Below, piece after piece: positions 1-39,202 of a stretch of DNA of 39,202 nt; the stretch's first letter is position 1; each line of letters starts with the position of its first letter. The DNA is from Opitutales bacterium (GTDB taxonomy: Bacteria > Verrucomicrobiota > Verrucomicrobiia > Opitutales > UBA953). The stretch is taken from assembly GCA_017546455.1 (NCBI GenBank), contig JAFYWY010000072.1, positions 1 through 39,202 on the forward strand, given 5' to 3'. The notes below the pieces were generated by a model. The model was not told the origin of the DNA. It was given only the letters and a program-made list of their open reading frames with translations, and did not search any database. The position numbers and the translations under genes were made by a program.

Positions 1-50
1 CTGCTCACCGATTACCTCTCGGGCACCATGCCCGATTGCGCACACCTAAT

Positions 51-98
51 ATACCACCCTCCCTCTTGGCAAATGTCACAAAATTGTCCCAAAATGCA
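51..98 (-). promoter_or_regulatory. Leftward promoter-like module with tandem TGTCACA-type heptamers (copy 1)
   Basis: On the plus strand two heptamers, TGTCACA (74-80) and TGTCCCA (85-91), lie exactly 11 bp apart and are followed by AT-rich DNA. Read on the minus strand, GTGACA forms a -35-like hexamer, with 17 bp to TGGTAT (positions 56-51). The 17 bases at 68-84 are the exact reverse complement of 242-258, so this copy mirrors the one upstream of the histidine kinase. It should drive a gene left of the window. Direct heptamers at 11-bp pitch are typical of OmpR/PhoB-family operators; regulator binding here is inferred. Confidence 0.55.
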
Positions 99-140
99 TT
101 TTTTTGGAAAAATTTTAGTTTTTTCGAAGAAATCCGCGAA

Positions 141-224
141 TTTTGCCTGCGGCGGTGATTGGTAAGTAAGCAGAGCAATTCCTGCGTGCTATTCACCATT
201 CGCTGCTCACCGCCGCAGGCAAAA
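141..224. repeat. 18-bp perfect inverted repeat enclosing a 7-nt-period spacer
   Basis: The arms 141-158 and 207-224 are perfect reverse complements built around GCCTGCGGCGGTGA, a 14-mer that recurs at 3683-3696 and 3724-3737. The 48-bp spacer is made of degenerate 7-nt units of GGTGATT/TCACCAT type. It separates the two divergent promoter-like modules (68-98 and 242-278). It could be a REP-like element or a bidirectional terminator; no coding gene is seen in 1-310. Confidence 0.7.
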
Positions 225-241
225 AAATCATTTTTAGGAAG

Positions 242-278
242 ATTTTGTGACATTTGCCCGGAATCTCTGTGTTAGAAT
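242..278 (+). promoter_or_regulatory. Promoter-like module upstream of the histidine kinase (copy 2)
   Basis: TGTGACA lies at 246-252. GTGACA (247-252) is followed after 17 bp by TGTTAG (270-275), a -35/-10-like pair about 35 bp before the chosen start codon at 311. The 17 bases at 242-258 match copy 1 exactly in inverse orientation. The upstream heptamer position (235-241) is poorly conserved here, so this copy looks like a half-site. Autoregulation of the two-component genes is an inference. Confidence 0.5.
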
Positions 279-310: not shown

Positions 311-2014
311 ATGCATATTTCGATAAAAATTGCTGTGACGGCGAGCTTGGCTTTGCTGACGACGCTAACGGTCGGCGGAATTGTTGCGGAGCGCGCCCGA
401 GCGCGGGAAGTCCAAGCGACGCTTGATCAGGAAGGAGCAAAACAGCAACGCTTTGCGGAGGATATTCTGCGCCGAGAGATTCGCTCCCGCACCGAGCAAT
501 ATGATGCGCTCCGTCCGGTTGATTTCTGGCAACTTGCTTCGAATCAGCCGCACAATCCGGATCGTTGGGGAGAATGTATGATTGCGTTTACGGCTTACGA
601 ATTTATCGAGAGCGAGGAACACCATCCCGGAACGCGTGAATTCACGATTTGGGGGCTTGCCGGCTTGGGACCGGAAGACGAAAAAGCGAAGCAAAGTCCG
701 TACACGATTCGATTCTTCAAGAACCGGGCGTTTAAACAACACCGCATCCTTACGTCGGAACAAAATGCCTTGTCCTCCGGAATTATTGATTTTCTTGATA
801 AGAAAATACCTTCGTCTTATCGCACATGGCGGGAAATGTTTACCCCGCGGGAAGCGCCGGATTCGCAAAGCGTCGCCTCGCGTTTCGGCCTATGGTCTTC
901 CTTTGCCTGCGGCTTCGGCGGAGATGTCGATTACGGGGCCGAATCCGTCGGAAGATTTTATTTTGAGGAAGACGGCCTGCGGCTCTTTTTACTTCGAAAT
1001 TGCTATGCGCCGAAAATTCACTCGGCAATTCAGGGAATGCAGGTGAATCCGGCTGTGCTTGCCGAATCGCTGACGCGGGCGCTTTCAAAATCCCTTCCGG
1101 GAGCAAAAATCACCGTTGAACCCTCACCGGACTCCGTAAGCATTTCGGGAGTTCCGATGAAATTCAATTTCCCGCCGACGGCAACGGCGCGCCGGGCCGT
1201 GGAATCGCTCACCGACTTTCGCCTTGCGCTGTTAATCGCTTGGGTCGCGGGGCTGTTATTTGTCGGCGTCATTGTCTCGGTTATTGCTCACACGCACAAG
1301 GTCTCCGAGCTGAGAAAACTATTTTCGTCGGCAATCGTACATGATTTGCGTTCGCCGCTCGCTCGTCTTGAGGCTCAGGCGGAATTGTTAGCGGAACATT
1401 GCCGGGAACAATCACCGCCGGTCGCGGAAGAGTCAGAAGAGCTTTGTCGCGGAATCCGCCACTTCCGCACGCTCACGAACAACTTTTTCTTCGCGGCAAA
1501 AATGGCGCATACGGGAACACGCGGACTGCATTTTACGACTATCCCCGTCGGCGAACTCATCGAAAACATCGTAGCTTCCATAGAGGACAGCCTGAATGCC
1601 CGCCAAATTGATTTGGAAACGGTTTTGCCGGATGCCGCCGCAGAGGCCTTTGTCCTCGCCTCCGAAAACGCCATGGAACGGATATTCGCCAATCTGAGTG
1701 AAAATGCGATCCGATTCACCGACGAGTCCGAAAACGCAAAGGTAACCATTTCGGCAAAAATCGCGGAGAACGGAAAGGCTGTCCATGTATTTTTTGAAGA
1801 CAACGGAAGCGGCATTTCCGAGGAGACAAGGCAGCATCTTTTTTCGTCATTTGCGCCCAAGGGCGACAGGCTCGGCATCGGGCTTTCCCTTTCGAAGGAT
1901 TTAGCACGAGCGCAAGGCGGCGATTTAATCCTGCAAAAAACCGATGCTTCCGGAACGGTGTTCTTGCTCACGCTGAAACGGGTCGCCCCGAAATCAAAAC
2001 CCGAACGTTTCTGA
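311..2014 (+). CDS. Membrane sensor histidine kinase
   Basis: Sensor kinase of a two-component system, 567 residues from ATG 311. A TTG at 254 would add 19 residues, but it precedes the predicted -10 element, and the ATG begins directly with a signal-anchor helix (residues 5-26). A second membrane helix lies at about 305-326, leaving a large extracytoplasmic sensor region (31-304) that I do not recognise; it has several Trp and Cys residues. The cytoplasmic part has an H-box with the phospho-accepting His344 followed by Asp-Leu-Arg-Ser-Pro. It also has an N-box with Asn461 and Asn465, a G1 box DNGSG (497-501) and a G2 region GIGLSLSK near 522-529. There is no obvious HAMP linker. It ends 2 nt before the response regulator start, so the two are almost certainly co-translated partners. 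The signal sensed is unknown. Confidence 0.93.
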   Translation: MHISIKIAVTASLALLTTLTVGGIVAERARAREVQATLDQEGAKQQRFAEDILRREIRSRTEQYDALRPVDFWQLASNQPHNPDRWGECMIAFTAYEFIESEEHHPGTREFTIWGLAGLGPEDEKAKQSPYTIRFFKNRAFKQHRILTSEQNALSSGIIDFLDKKIPSSYRTWREMFTPREAPDSQSVASRFGLWSSFACGFGGDVDYGAESVGRFYFEEDGLRLFLLRNCYAPKIHSAIQGMQVNPAVLAESLTRALSKSLPGAKITVEPSPDSVSISGVPMKFNFPPTATARRAVESLTDFRLALLIAWVAGLLFVGVIVSVIAHTHKVSELRKLFSSAIVHDLRSPLARLEAQAELLAEHCREQSPPVAEESEELCRGIRHFRTLTNNFFFAAKMAHTGTRGLHFTTIPVGELIENIVASIEDSLNARQIDLETVLPDAAAEAFVLASENAMERIFANLSENAIRFTDESENAKVTISAKIAENGKAVHVFFEDNGSGISEETRQHLFSSFAPKGDRLGIGLSLSKDLARAQGGDLILQKTDASGTVFLLTLKRVAPKSKPERF

Positions 2015-2016
2015 AA

Positions 2017-2712
2017 ATGCCGGCCAACACCATTCGCATACTCGTCGTCGAAGATGATTCCGCTTTACTCCGGCAAATCACGAAAATTCTGTCGGAGCAA
2101 AAATATGCCGTTTGCACGGCAGCCTCCTACAACGAGGCCCTCCGCTGCATCGAAAACGAATCCTTCGACCTCGCAATTTTGGATATCGTGCTCGACGATG
2201 CGGGAAGCGGAATCGAAATTTTAAAATACCTTCGCGAACAACGCGGCTACGGGCTCCCCGTAATCATGCAAACTTCCATGTCGGACGACCTCCATTGCGT
2301 CCGCTGCCTCAATCTCGGCGCAGACGACTTCATCGCCAAGCCCGTTCGCCCGGCACCGCTGATTGCACGCATCGAAGCCGCCTTGCGTCGGGCCGGAATC
2401 GCGACCCCGCGCGACACCCGGCTACAACTGCGCGACGGTGCCTATGCCGATTACCTCCGCCGAAAAGTTTTTCTCTCCACGGGCGAAGACATCAATCTGA
2501 CGGTCAAGGAAACCCAATTATTGCGCTACCTTGCCGGGCAGAGCGGAAACCCTGCCACGGCGGAATCCATTTTTATCAACGTGTGGAACTGCACTCCGAA
2601 CGGACACAATCTCCATAAAATAAACACGTTGATCTCCCGGCTTCGCACAAAACTCACCGGACTCGCCGATATCCAATCGCTCTACGGTACCGGACATCAG
2701 CTTAAAATCTGA
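2017..2712 (+). CDS. OmpR-family response regulator
   Basis: DNA-binding response regulator of 231 residues. The receiver domain (about 6-122) has the acidic pair Asp13/Asp14, phospho-accepting Asp56, switch Thr86 and the conserved Lys108-Pro109. The C-terminal part (about 135-231) is a winged-helix output domain of the OmpR/PhoB type, with the typical 'LT.KE..LL..L' opening and an ending resembling 'GxGY.L' (here YGTGHQLKI). It starts 2 nt after the kinase stop, implying translational coupling. OmpR/PhoB proteins normally bind direct repeats about 11 bp apart. Such repeats occur at 74-91, 37996-38013 and 38138-38155, with a half-site at 246-252, making this protein the natural candidate to bind them. 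That link is inferred. Confidence 0.93.
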   Translation: MPANTIRILVVEDDSALLRQITKILSEQKYAVCTAASYNEALRCIENESFDLAILDIVLDDAGSGIEILKYLREQRGYGLPVIMQTSMSDDLHCVRCLNLGADDFIAKPVRPAPLIARIEAALRRAGIATPRDTRLQLRDGAYADYLRRKVFLSTGEDINLTVKETQLLRYLAGQSGNPATAESIFINVWNCTPNGHNLHKINTLISRLRTKLTGLADIQSLYGTGHQLKI

Positions 2713-15850: not shown

Positions 15851-16036
15851 AGGGAACCACGAATGAACACGAACACTCACGAATGATTTTGACGAAAGCA
15901 AAACTCCCGAAAATCTAAAAAAACAGCCACTCCCAAGTTTCCGGAGTGGCTGTTTTTTTGAGGAAGTAAGTTTTTCTCAAGCGGTTAGGTTCCGCCTAAA
16001 ACATTCGTGAGTGTTCGTGTTCATTCGTGGTTCCCT
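15851..16036. repeat. 35-bp perfect inverted repeat around a terminator
   Basis: Bases 15851-15885 and 16002-16036 are exact reverse complements over 35 bp (theme CCACGAATGAACACGAA). The terminator at 15917-15959 sits between them. The arms begin 17 nt after the batDE-like stop and end 14 nt before the GH20 stop, so each convergent gene is followed by its own arm. The arm sequence also steps roughly in sevens. Confidence 0.85.
15917..15959. terminator. Bidirectional terminator between bat fusion and GH20 genes
   Basis: The stem CAGCCACTCC (15924-15933) pairs perfectly with GGAGTGGCTG (15943-15952), flanked by seven A and seven T. It can end transcription from both convergent genes. Confidence 0.9.
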
Positions 16037-37900: not shown

Positions 37901-37989
37901 ATTCCTTCCGCACATCTGCACCTAAACGCACACAGAAGAATGGATTTACACGATACTTCGACGATAAAATTCAAAAGGAGATTTTTGCC

Positions 37990-38160
37990 GGGAATTGTCG
38001 CAGAATTGTTACAAAAATTATTTTTTTTTGTAATTTTTTGGGTTTAGGCGGCGGTTTTTTGGGGGTGTTTTCGGCGTTTTGGCCTTTAGTGATGCGGGTT
38101 TGCGGGAAATTAAAATTTTTTTGAAAAAATTGCATTTTGTGACAATTCTGTGACAATTGC
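37990..38160. promoter_or_regulatory. Inverted pair of TGTGACA modules with rightward promoter (copies 3 and 4)
   Basis: Copy 3: TGTGACA at 38138-38144 and again at 38149-38155, exactly 11 bp apart. GTGACA (38150-38155) is followed after 17 bp by TGTTAA (38073+100, i.e. 38173-38178), facing the RHS gene. Copy 4: TGTCGCA (37996-38002) and TGTTACA (38007-38013), 11 bp apart in the opposite orientation. The two arms continue in similar AT-rich sequence and enclose a G/T-rich centre (about 38035-38105). Apart from this, 37900-38234 has no gene. A small hairpin TCGGGA/TCCCGA (38194-38211) precedes the RHS ribosome site. Confidence 0.55.
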
Positions 38161-38234
38161 TCGAAGGGCTCATGTTAAACTGGTTATGCACGCTCGGGAA
38201 ATACCTCCCGAAAGTGCCGGAGGAAATAGGTCTC

Positions 38235-39202
38235 ATGAATAGCTCTAACTTAACGAATCGAAACACATTTTCTAATCCGCGCGGCACGGGCTATTCGATC
38301 GGCGGTGTGCGCAAGACGACGCTCGCCTACGATGCGGCGAGCGGGCGTTTGGTCGGGATGGCCGCGGAAAGCGATAACTTTACGTGGGAATACCTCGCGG
38401 GAACTAACCTGAAATCGAAGCTCACGTACCCGAACGCGGCGACCGCGGAGTGGACATACGAGGCGGAACGTGATTTGATTGCCCAAGTGAAAAACACCGT
38501 CAACGGCAACGTGATTTCGCAATACGACTACGCGCACGACGCGCTTGGTCGGCGCACGTCCGCCGCGAAATCCGGCACGATGATGGCGGCTTCGGAAAAC
38601 CTCGCCTACGGCTACAACGCCCGCTCGGAACTCGTTTCCGCCGTCTCCGACACCGATGCAAACTACAATTACGCTTACGCTTTCGATGATATCGGCAACC
38701 GCAAAACCGCCTCCGAAGCGGGAACGGCATTGACTTACACGGCAAACAACCTCAATCAGTATACGAGTGTTGCCCCAAGCGCCGAAGGCGTGGCGGAGGC
38801 GTTGACGTATGACGCGGACGGGAACGCGACTGTGATTCAAACCGCCACGGGAACGTGGCAAATCTCCTACAACGCGGAAAACCGTCCGGTGCGCTGGACA
38901 AACGCCGAGACGGGAACGGTAATCACGATGACGTTTGATTCGCAGGGACGACGCACGGAATATAAATCCGTGACGAACGGCGCGCAAAACACGTGGTTGC
39001 GCTTCCTCTACGACGGCTATCTCTGTGTACAGGTGCTCTATTCGAACGAGCCGTACAACGTGTTCAAAGAGTTTGTCTGGGATCCGACGGAACCGGTCGC
39101 GACGCGTCCGTTGGTGTTCCGCTACGCGCCGAACAGCCTGAACCTGTTCTACGCTTTCGACGGCAACAAAAACGTCTCGGACGTGTTTTACCGGATGAAT
39201 TC
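38235..39202 (+). CDS. RHS/YD-repeat protein, 3' end beyond the window
   Basis: Open frame of at least 322 codons running off the right edge, so partial. ATG 38235 has a good ribosome site (GGAGG, 38219-38223). After about 25 unrelated residues it enters YD repeats: 'TLAYDAASGRLVGM', 'SQYDYAHDALGRRTSA', 'YAYAFDDIGNRKTASEAG', 'YTANNLNQYTSV', 'LTYDADGNATVIQ' and 'ISYNAENRPVRWTN', then 'WLRFLYDGYLCVQ' approaching the RHS core. RHS proteins form large shells, often around a C-terminal toxin. There is no signal peptide and no long N-terminal region, so this may be a 5'-truncated RHS cassette. The toxin tip, if any, lies outside the window. Confidence 0.85.
   Translation, partial: MNSSNLTNRNTFSNPRGTGYSIGGVRKTTLAYDAASGRLVGMAAESDNFTWEYLAGTNLKSKLTYPNAATAEWTYEAERDLIAQVKNTVNGNVISQYDYAHDALGRRTSAAKSGTMMAASENLAYGYNARSELVSAVSDTDANYNYAYAFDDIGNRKTASEAGTALTYTANNLNQYTSVAPSAEGVAEALTYDADGNATVIQTATGTWQISYNAENRPVRWTNAETGTVITMTFDSQGRRTEYKSVTNGAQNTWLRFLYDGYLCVQVLYSNEPYNVFKEFVWDPTEPVATRPLVFRYAPNSLNLFYAFDGNKNVSDVFYRMN

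Follow-up and report, generated by a model that had tools for sequence, protein, structure and literature searches.

The window, a stretch of 39,202 nucleotides that makes up an entire contig (C63) of an Opitutales genome (G000), opens with two divergent promoter-like modules, the second of which precedes genes for a sensor histidine kinase and a response regulator, and ends within an RHS-repeat gene that is headed by a third module:

48–56, minus strand: extended −10 (TGG TATATT) 17 bp past operator copy 1, at an offset fixed across 13 promoters; predicted promoter of a gene beyond the left end of the contig
74–91, minus strand: operator copy 1, TGGGACA (91–85), ATTT, TGTGACA (80–74), 11-bp pitch; from the sequence and a model match at 46–105 (E = 4.3e-13)
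92–105, minus strand: AAAAAA-TGCATTT, a tract conserved on the upstream side of copy 1, with invariant A and T alignment columns
141–158 and 207–224, no strand: GC-rich inverted repeat (TTTGCCTGCGGCGGTGA...TCACCGCCGCAGGCAAA) lying between the two divergent promoters; a multi-copy element
221–234, plus strand: an A-tract plus a run of T ahead of operator copy 2, from the promoter alignment
235–252, plus strand: operator copy 2, weak TAGGAAG (235–241), ATTT, TGTGACA (246–252); model match at 221–278 (E = 2.2e-10)
270–278, plus strand: extended −10 (TGT TAGAAT) 17 bp past copy 2; start predicted at about 284–286
311–2014, plus strand: sensor histidine kinase, 567 aa (Pfam HATPase_c, E = 1.6e-17; HisKA slightly below the cut-off)
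2017–2712, plus strand: OmpR/PhoB-type response regulator, 231 aa (Pfam Response_reg, E = 1.6e-25; Trans_reg_C, E = 2.2e-10); presumed operator binder
37981–38027, minus strand: copy of the operator that lacks a −10; it derives by duplication from the region of the C61 kinase promoter and has no kinase gene with it; from the sequence and a model match
38138–38155, plus strand: third operator, a perfect TGTGACA-ATTC-TGTGACA with 11-bp pitch (model E = 2.4e-13)
38173–38181, plus strand: extended −10 (TGT TAAACT) 17 bp past the third operator
38188–38217, plus strand: 5' leader stem-loop, similar to leaders on C50, C55, C10 and at the C38 end
38235–39202, plus strand: RHS-repeat protein gene (Pfam RHS_repeat, E = 4.4e-9; YD repeat), continuing past the contig end

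The regulator combines a receiver domain with a winged-helix Trans_reg_C domain, as is characteristic of OmpR/PhoB-type proteins, while the N-terminal sensor region of the kinase is common to its paralogues and matches no Pfam family. The RHS-associated core of the gene at 38235–39202 would fall beyond the contig end and was seen only in its relatives on C62 and C31; this gene is a candidate toxin. In those relatives the core is followed by differing tips (L190 208–633 and 2251–3510 on G000:C62; L191 2088–2705 on G000:C31), C62 also carries an orphan tip with a shortened core, and these genes look like polymorphic RHS cassettes. Elsewhere in the window lies a perfect inverted repeat with 35-bp arms about 116 bp apart (15851–15885 and 16002–16036), and an Rfam search of the window returned no match.

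An identical 17-bp core common to the two divergent modules had been described in the earlier note, and we confirmed that the reverse complement of 68–84 equals 242–258 (ATTTTGTGACATTTGCC); none of 100 dinucleotide-preserving shuffles of the window produced an inverted match of 17 bp at a spacing of up to 300 bp. The two heptamers 11 bp apart claimed for copy 1 are likewise present, as TGGGACA-N4-TGTGACA (91–74, minus strand), while copy 2 has a single good heptamer (246–252) and a weak upstream half-site (TAGGAAG). Direct-repeat half-sites with a pitch of about 11 bp thus lie near the −35 region of the regulator's own promoter. The statement that GTGACA is followed after exactly 17 bp by a TGnTAn element acting as the −10 holds for the distance in both copies but is better refined for the element: once TGn is counted as an extension, the −10 hexamer proper (TAnAnT) lies 20 bp beyond the heptamer. 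By itself, TGTGACA shows only mild enrichment in the window (4 occurrences versus 1.2 expected), and two of the four form the perfect pair at 38138–38155. In full, the module comprises an A-tract with TGCATTT, a heptamer-N4-heptamer at 11-bp pitch, 17 bp, and an extended −10 (TGn-TAnAnT).

A genome scan had been proposed as a check on whether the motif is merely scattered. Using a sequence-only profile of 60 columns built from nine promoters, we obtained 11 matches in the 2.15-Mb genome at E ≤ 3.4e-7, followed by a gap to the next match at E = 0.013, these E-values being rough because the model calibration was shortened. The motif is therefore not scattered: the 11 matches precede four OmpR-type regulator operons, an RHS-repeat gene, TSP3-repeat genes and a small secreted-type array, or sit at contig ends. 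Since the contigs C63 (1), C61 (7460) and C38 (7596) end at or within modules, this count is a lower bound. Two further candidates were set aside: TTTTGTGACATTT at C59:40777 (L053), which has no model match, was rejected as a site, and C36:42985 is a decayed copy that retains the upstream tract only.

The layout is kept in 13 promoters across three genomes, although copies within a genome are not independent because they are partly recent duplicates. Four of the 13 (C38, C50, C55 and C10) lie outside the model-building set, and the −10 stands at the same offset in all four, sites that were partly selected for it since the model includes the −10, as well as in a fifth, cut-off site at the C38 end, which was located independently of the profile model. 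Over the 13 promoters, information amounts to 1.0–1.3 bits per column in the half-sites and the −10 and to 1.35 in the A-tract region, as against 0.21 in the spacer beyond its first three bases. The −10 matches at 4–5 of 6 positions in every promoter and is preceded by TGn in nine, CGn in three and CTG in one, and thus conforms to the sigma-70 extended −10, a TGn-TATAAT-like element at a fixed place that requires no −35. A −35 looked for at 16–18 bp from the −10 scored at best 1–2 of 6 in these promoters, none of them usable.

Searching the genome for the heptamer pair revealed an exact second copy on C61, which encodes a response regulator 52% identical to that of the window. There, minus-strand regulator and kinase genes are followed by a minus-strand module (TGTAACA-ATTC-TGCGACA-17 bp-TGA-TAAATT), which would drive the kinase, and then by a module on the plus strand that the contig end truncates; the intergenic regions of C61 and of C63 at 38 kb are nearly identical. 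On C1, the locus of a third paralogue, TGCAACA-ATCT-TGCAACA-17 bp-TGC-TACACT stands before a small secreted-type gene, which is followed by the kinase and regulator. In a sister species (G005:C30), TGAAACA-AGTT-TGTAACA precedes a kinase-kinase-regulator run, and the adjacent RHS gene carries a box of its own, TGTAACA-AGTT-TGTAACA. On G004:C18 and G005:C34, a box of the form TGCAATC or TGTAATC-ATTC-TGCAAGA, with TAAAAT at the same offset, heads gene runs whose last genes encode a kinase and a regulator. The C38 box lies before a regulator-kinase operon, the C50 box heads an array of small secreted-type genes, and TSP3-repeat genes follow the boxes of C55 and C10; at C50, C55 and C10 no regulator is adjacent on the contig. 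The C50 array (L174, G000:C50:18000–32037) consists of about ten small secreted-type ORFs, several of which share the tail GLFLWLKIRSRRRKN, and those tested matched no family. The GC-rich inverted repeat recurs at C50:21497, C50:27631, C67:5023, C10:1370 and C36:42891, several copies being directly upstream of boxes.

OmpR-type regulator operons with a box were thus found in the window, on C61, C1 and C38, and, in G004 and G005, among relatives. Of the seven regulators from box-bearing operons, six form one clade (support 99/97), while the C38 regulator, whose promoter nonetheless has the box, is placed uncertainly on a long branch at 30–34% identity. Conversely, seven further OmpR-type regulators of the genus, all of which fall outside the clade (C103, G004:C20, G004:C3, G005:C1, G005:C8, G002:C15 and G001:C101), had no box in their surroundings. 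Among the eight genus genomes, box and regulator clade co-occur (3/3 versus 0/5; Fisher p = 0.018, with the top candidates scored per genome), and no box was detected in the family's genomes outside the genus among the top candidates scored in each, a limit that makes the absence elsewhere less than absolute. A scan of contigs with the regulator alignment returned only distant regulators, at 29–36%, mostly from Firmicutes. Regulator and neighboring target promoters carry the same box variant: box identity is 13–14 of 14 positions within a locus versus 10–12 between loci, a match that local duplication could also have caused.

The box-driven genes of surface type share a further feature, a stem-loop (GCAC..CGGG..CCCG or GCUCG..GUGC; shuffle z −1.9 to −4.0) that opens their 5' leaders (also L174 9500–9541, L175 2727–2768, L176 1237–1278 and the end of L173), which the kinase promoters do not show; it is possibly an mRNA-stability or regulatory leader. 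For the gene to the left of position 1, which is off the contig, the leader (1–46) gave no useful match, but the upstream half of the module (130–72) matches C55 at 92% and C50, C10 and C38 at 85–87%; going by comparable modules, it would be an RHS- or TSP3-type gene.

The earlier note had regarded direct heptamers at 11-bp pitch as a known geometry of OmpR/PhoB-family regulators; the adjacent regulator has the Pfam domains of that family, and described systems have the same geometry. The VicR/WalR (YycF) box of Firmicutes reads TGTWAHA-N4-TGTWAHA, and VicR reportedly represses at some sites and activates at others (PMC4168254). In Mycobacterium tuberculosis, PhoP binds a 7 bp-N4-7 bp direct repeat as a head-to-tail dimer (PMC4832192). 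With the former, the present box shares the heptamer-N4-heptamer arrangement, the initial TG, the A at position 5 and an OmpR-type regulator, and the RHS box of G005:C30 fits that consensus exactly; however, position 4 is G in the window boxes, the regulator reaches 96 bits where the YycF NCBIfam cut-off is 340, and the regulon here consists of RHS/TSP3 genes and the regulator itself. With PhoP the 7-N4-7 geometry is shared, while the half-site sequence and the targets differ. The pho box is similar in its 11-bp direct-repeat pitch in the −35 region, where it replaces the −35, but its TGTCA half-sites run with transcription, whereas here the complementary TGTGACA does; moreover, the −10 lies further downstream, no phosphate genes were seen, and the PhoB profile, second-best for the regulator, gives 118 bits against a cut-off of 296. 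The regulator falls below all curated NCBIfam cut-offs among its best matches. In its mode of action the box would resemble a WalR/VicR or PhoP site; we do not assign it as one.

Taken together, these results make it very probable that each module combines a promoter and an operator on which the adjacent OmpR/PhoB-type regulator, or a close paralogue, acts; this regulator would activate its own operon and neighboring RHS/TSP3-type genes. The autoregulated operator proposed earlier is supported by a motif that is concentrated at regulator-operon promoters and by the single clade formed by six of the seven regulators, and the predicted regulon is larger than had been envisaged. In such a system, the sensor kinase would phosphorylate the regulator, which would bind as a head-to-tail dimer in the manner of its family, occupying both half-sites between about −50 and −33; the bound regulator would recruit RNA polymerase, substituting for the missing −35 contact at the extended −10, and thereby switch on the kinase-regulator operon together with the neighboring RHS/TSP3-type surface-protein genes. 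The system has been duplicated in the genome, each regulator promoter and neighboring target promoter keeping the same box variant.

If GTGACA were instead an ordinary sigma-70 −35 hexamer, the module would be a constitutive promoter; three copies indeed match TTGACA at 5 of 6 positions, and a spacing of 17 bp would suit a −10 read as TGnTAn. Yet in the other ten promoters the hexamer drops to 2–4 of 6 while the box core TGnnA persists, the better −10 (TAnAnT) is 20 bp away, and a −35 needs no second half-site at a fixed 11-bp pitch, which renders this explanation very improbable. We give even less credence to the idea that the likeness stems only from a recently copied intergenic element, its motif having no regulatory role: box and −10 are kept in other species despite differing spacer and flanks, conservation falls to 0.2 bits in the spacer and recovers at the −10, and the orphan copy at 37981–38027, which no kinase gene follows, has no −10, even though the near-identity of the C61 and C63 regions and the multi-copy repeat (141–224) beside several boxes would be expected of such an element.

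Binding by another, unlinked regulator that coordinates the loci would accommodate the divergent C38 regulator behind a box-bearing promoter, as well as the C50, C55 and C10 boxes at genes without an adjacent regulator; however, the co-occurrence of box and clade (3/3 versus 0/5 genomes) and the pairing of regulator and target by box variant inside a locus leave it little probability. The same operator and regulator might also act by repression, or by repression plus activation, which we consider unlikely. The site does overlap the −35 region, and either function is possible for VicR sites (PMC4168254). Without a usable −35, however, a repressor would be guarding a weak promoter. Furthermore, activators usually have a layout in which a proximal operator accompanies an extended −10, and activation thus seems likelier than repression.

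Operator, promoter layout and regulon are here defined from sequence alone in a lineage that is uncharacterized, and a duplicated two-component family is connected with surface proteins of RHS/TSP3 type, about the control of which little is known. RHS repeats, as well as the RHS-associated core and orphan tips at C62 and C31, are shared with RHS polymorphic proteins, but some of the genes here carry the type of promoter that belongs to a dedicated, duplicated two-component system, and our literature search on RHS genes under two-component control found no such description. More tentatively, the locus-specific operator variants, matched between regulator and neighboring RHS/TSP3 promoters, might reflect several duplicated, mutually insulated sensor-regulator systems in which operator and regulator co-diverged after duplication. 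If so, single surface or competition proteins could be switched separately. The matched box variants offer a natural set for studying how paralogous regulators and operators become insulated.
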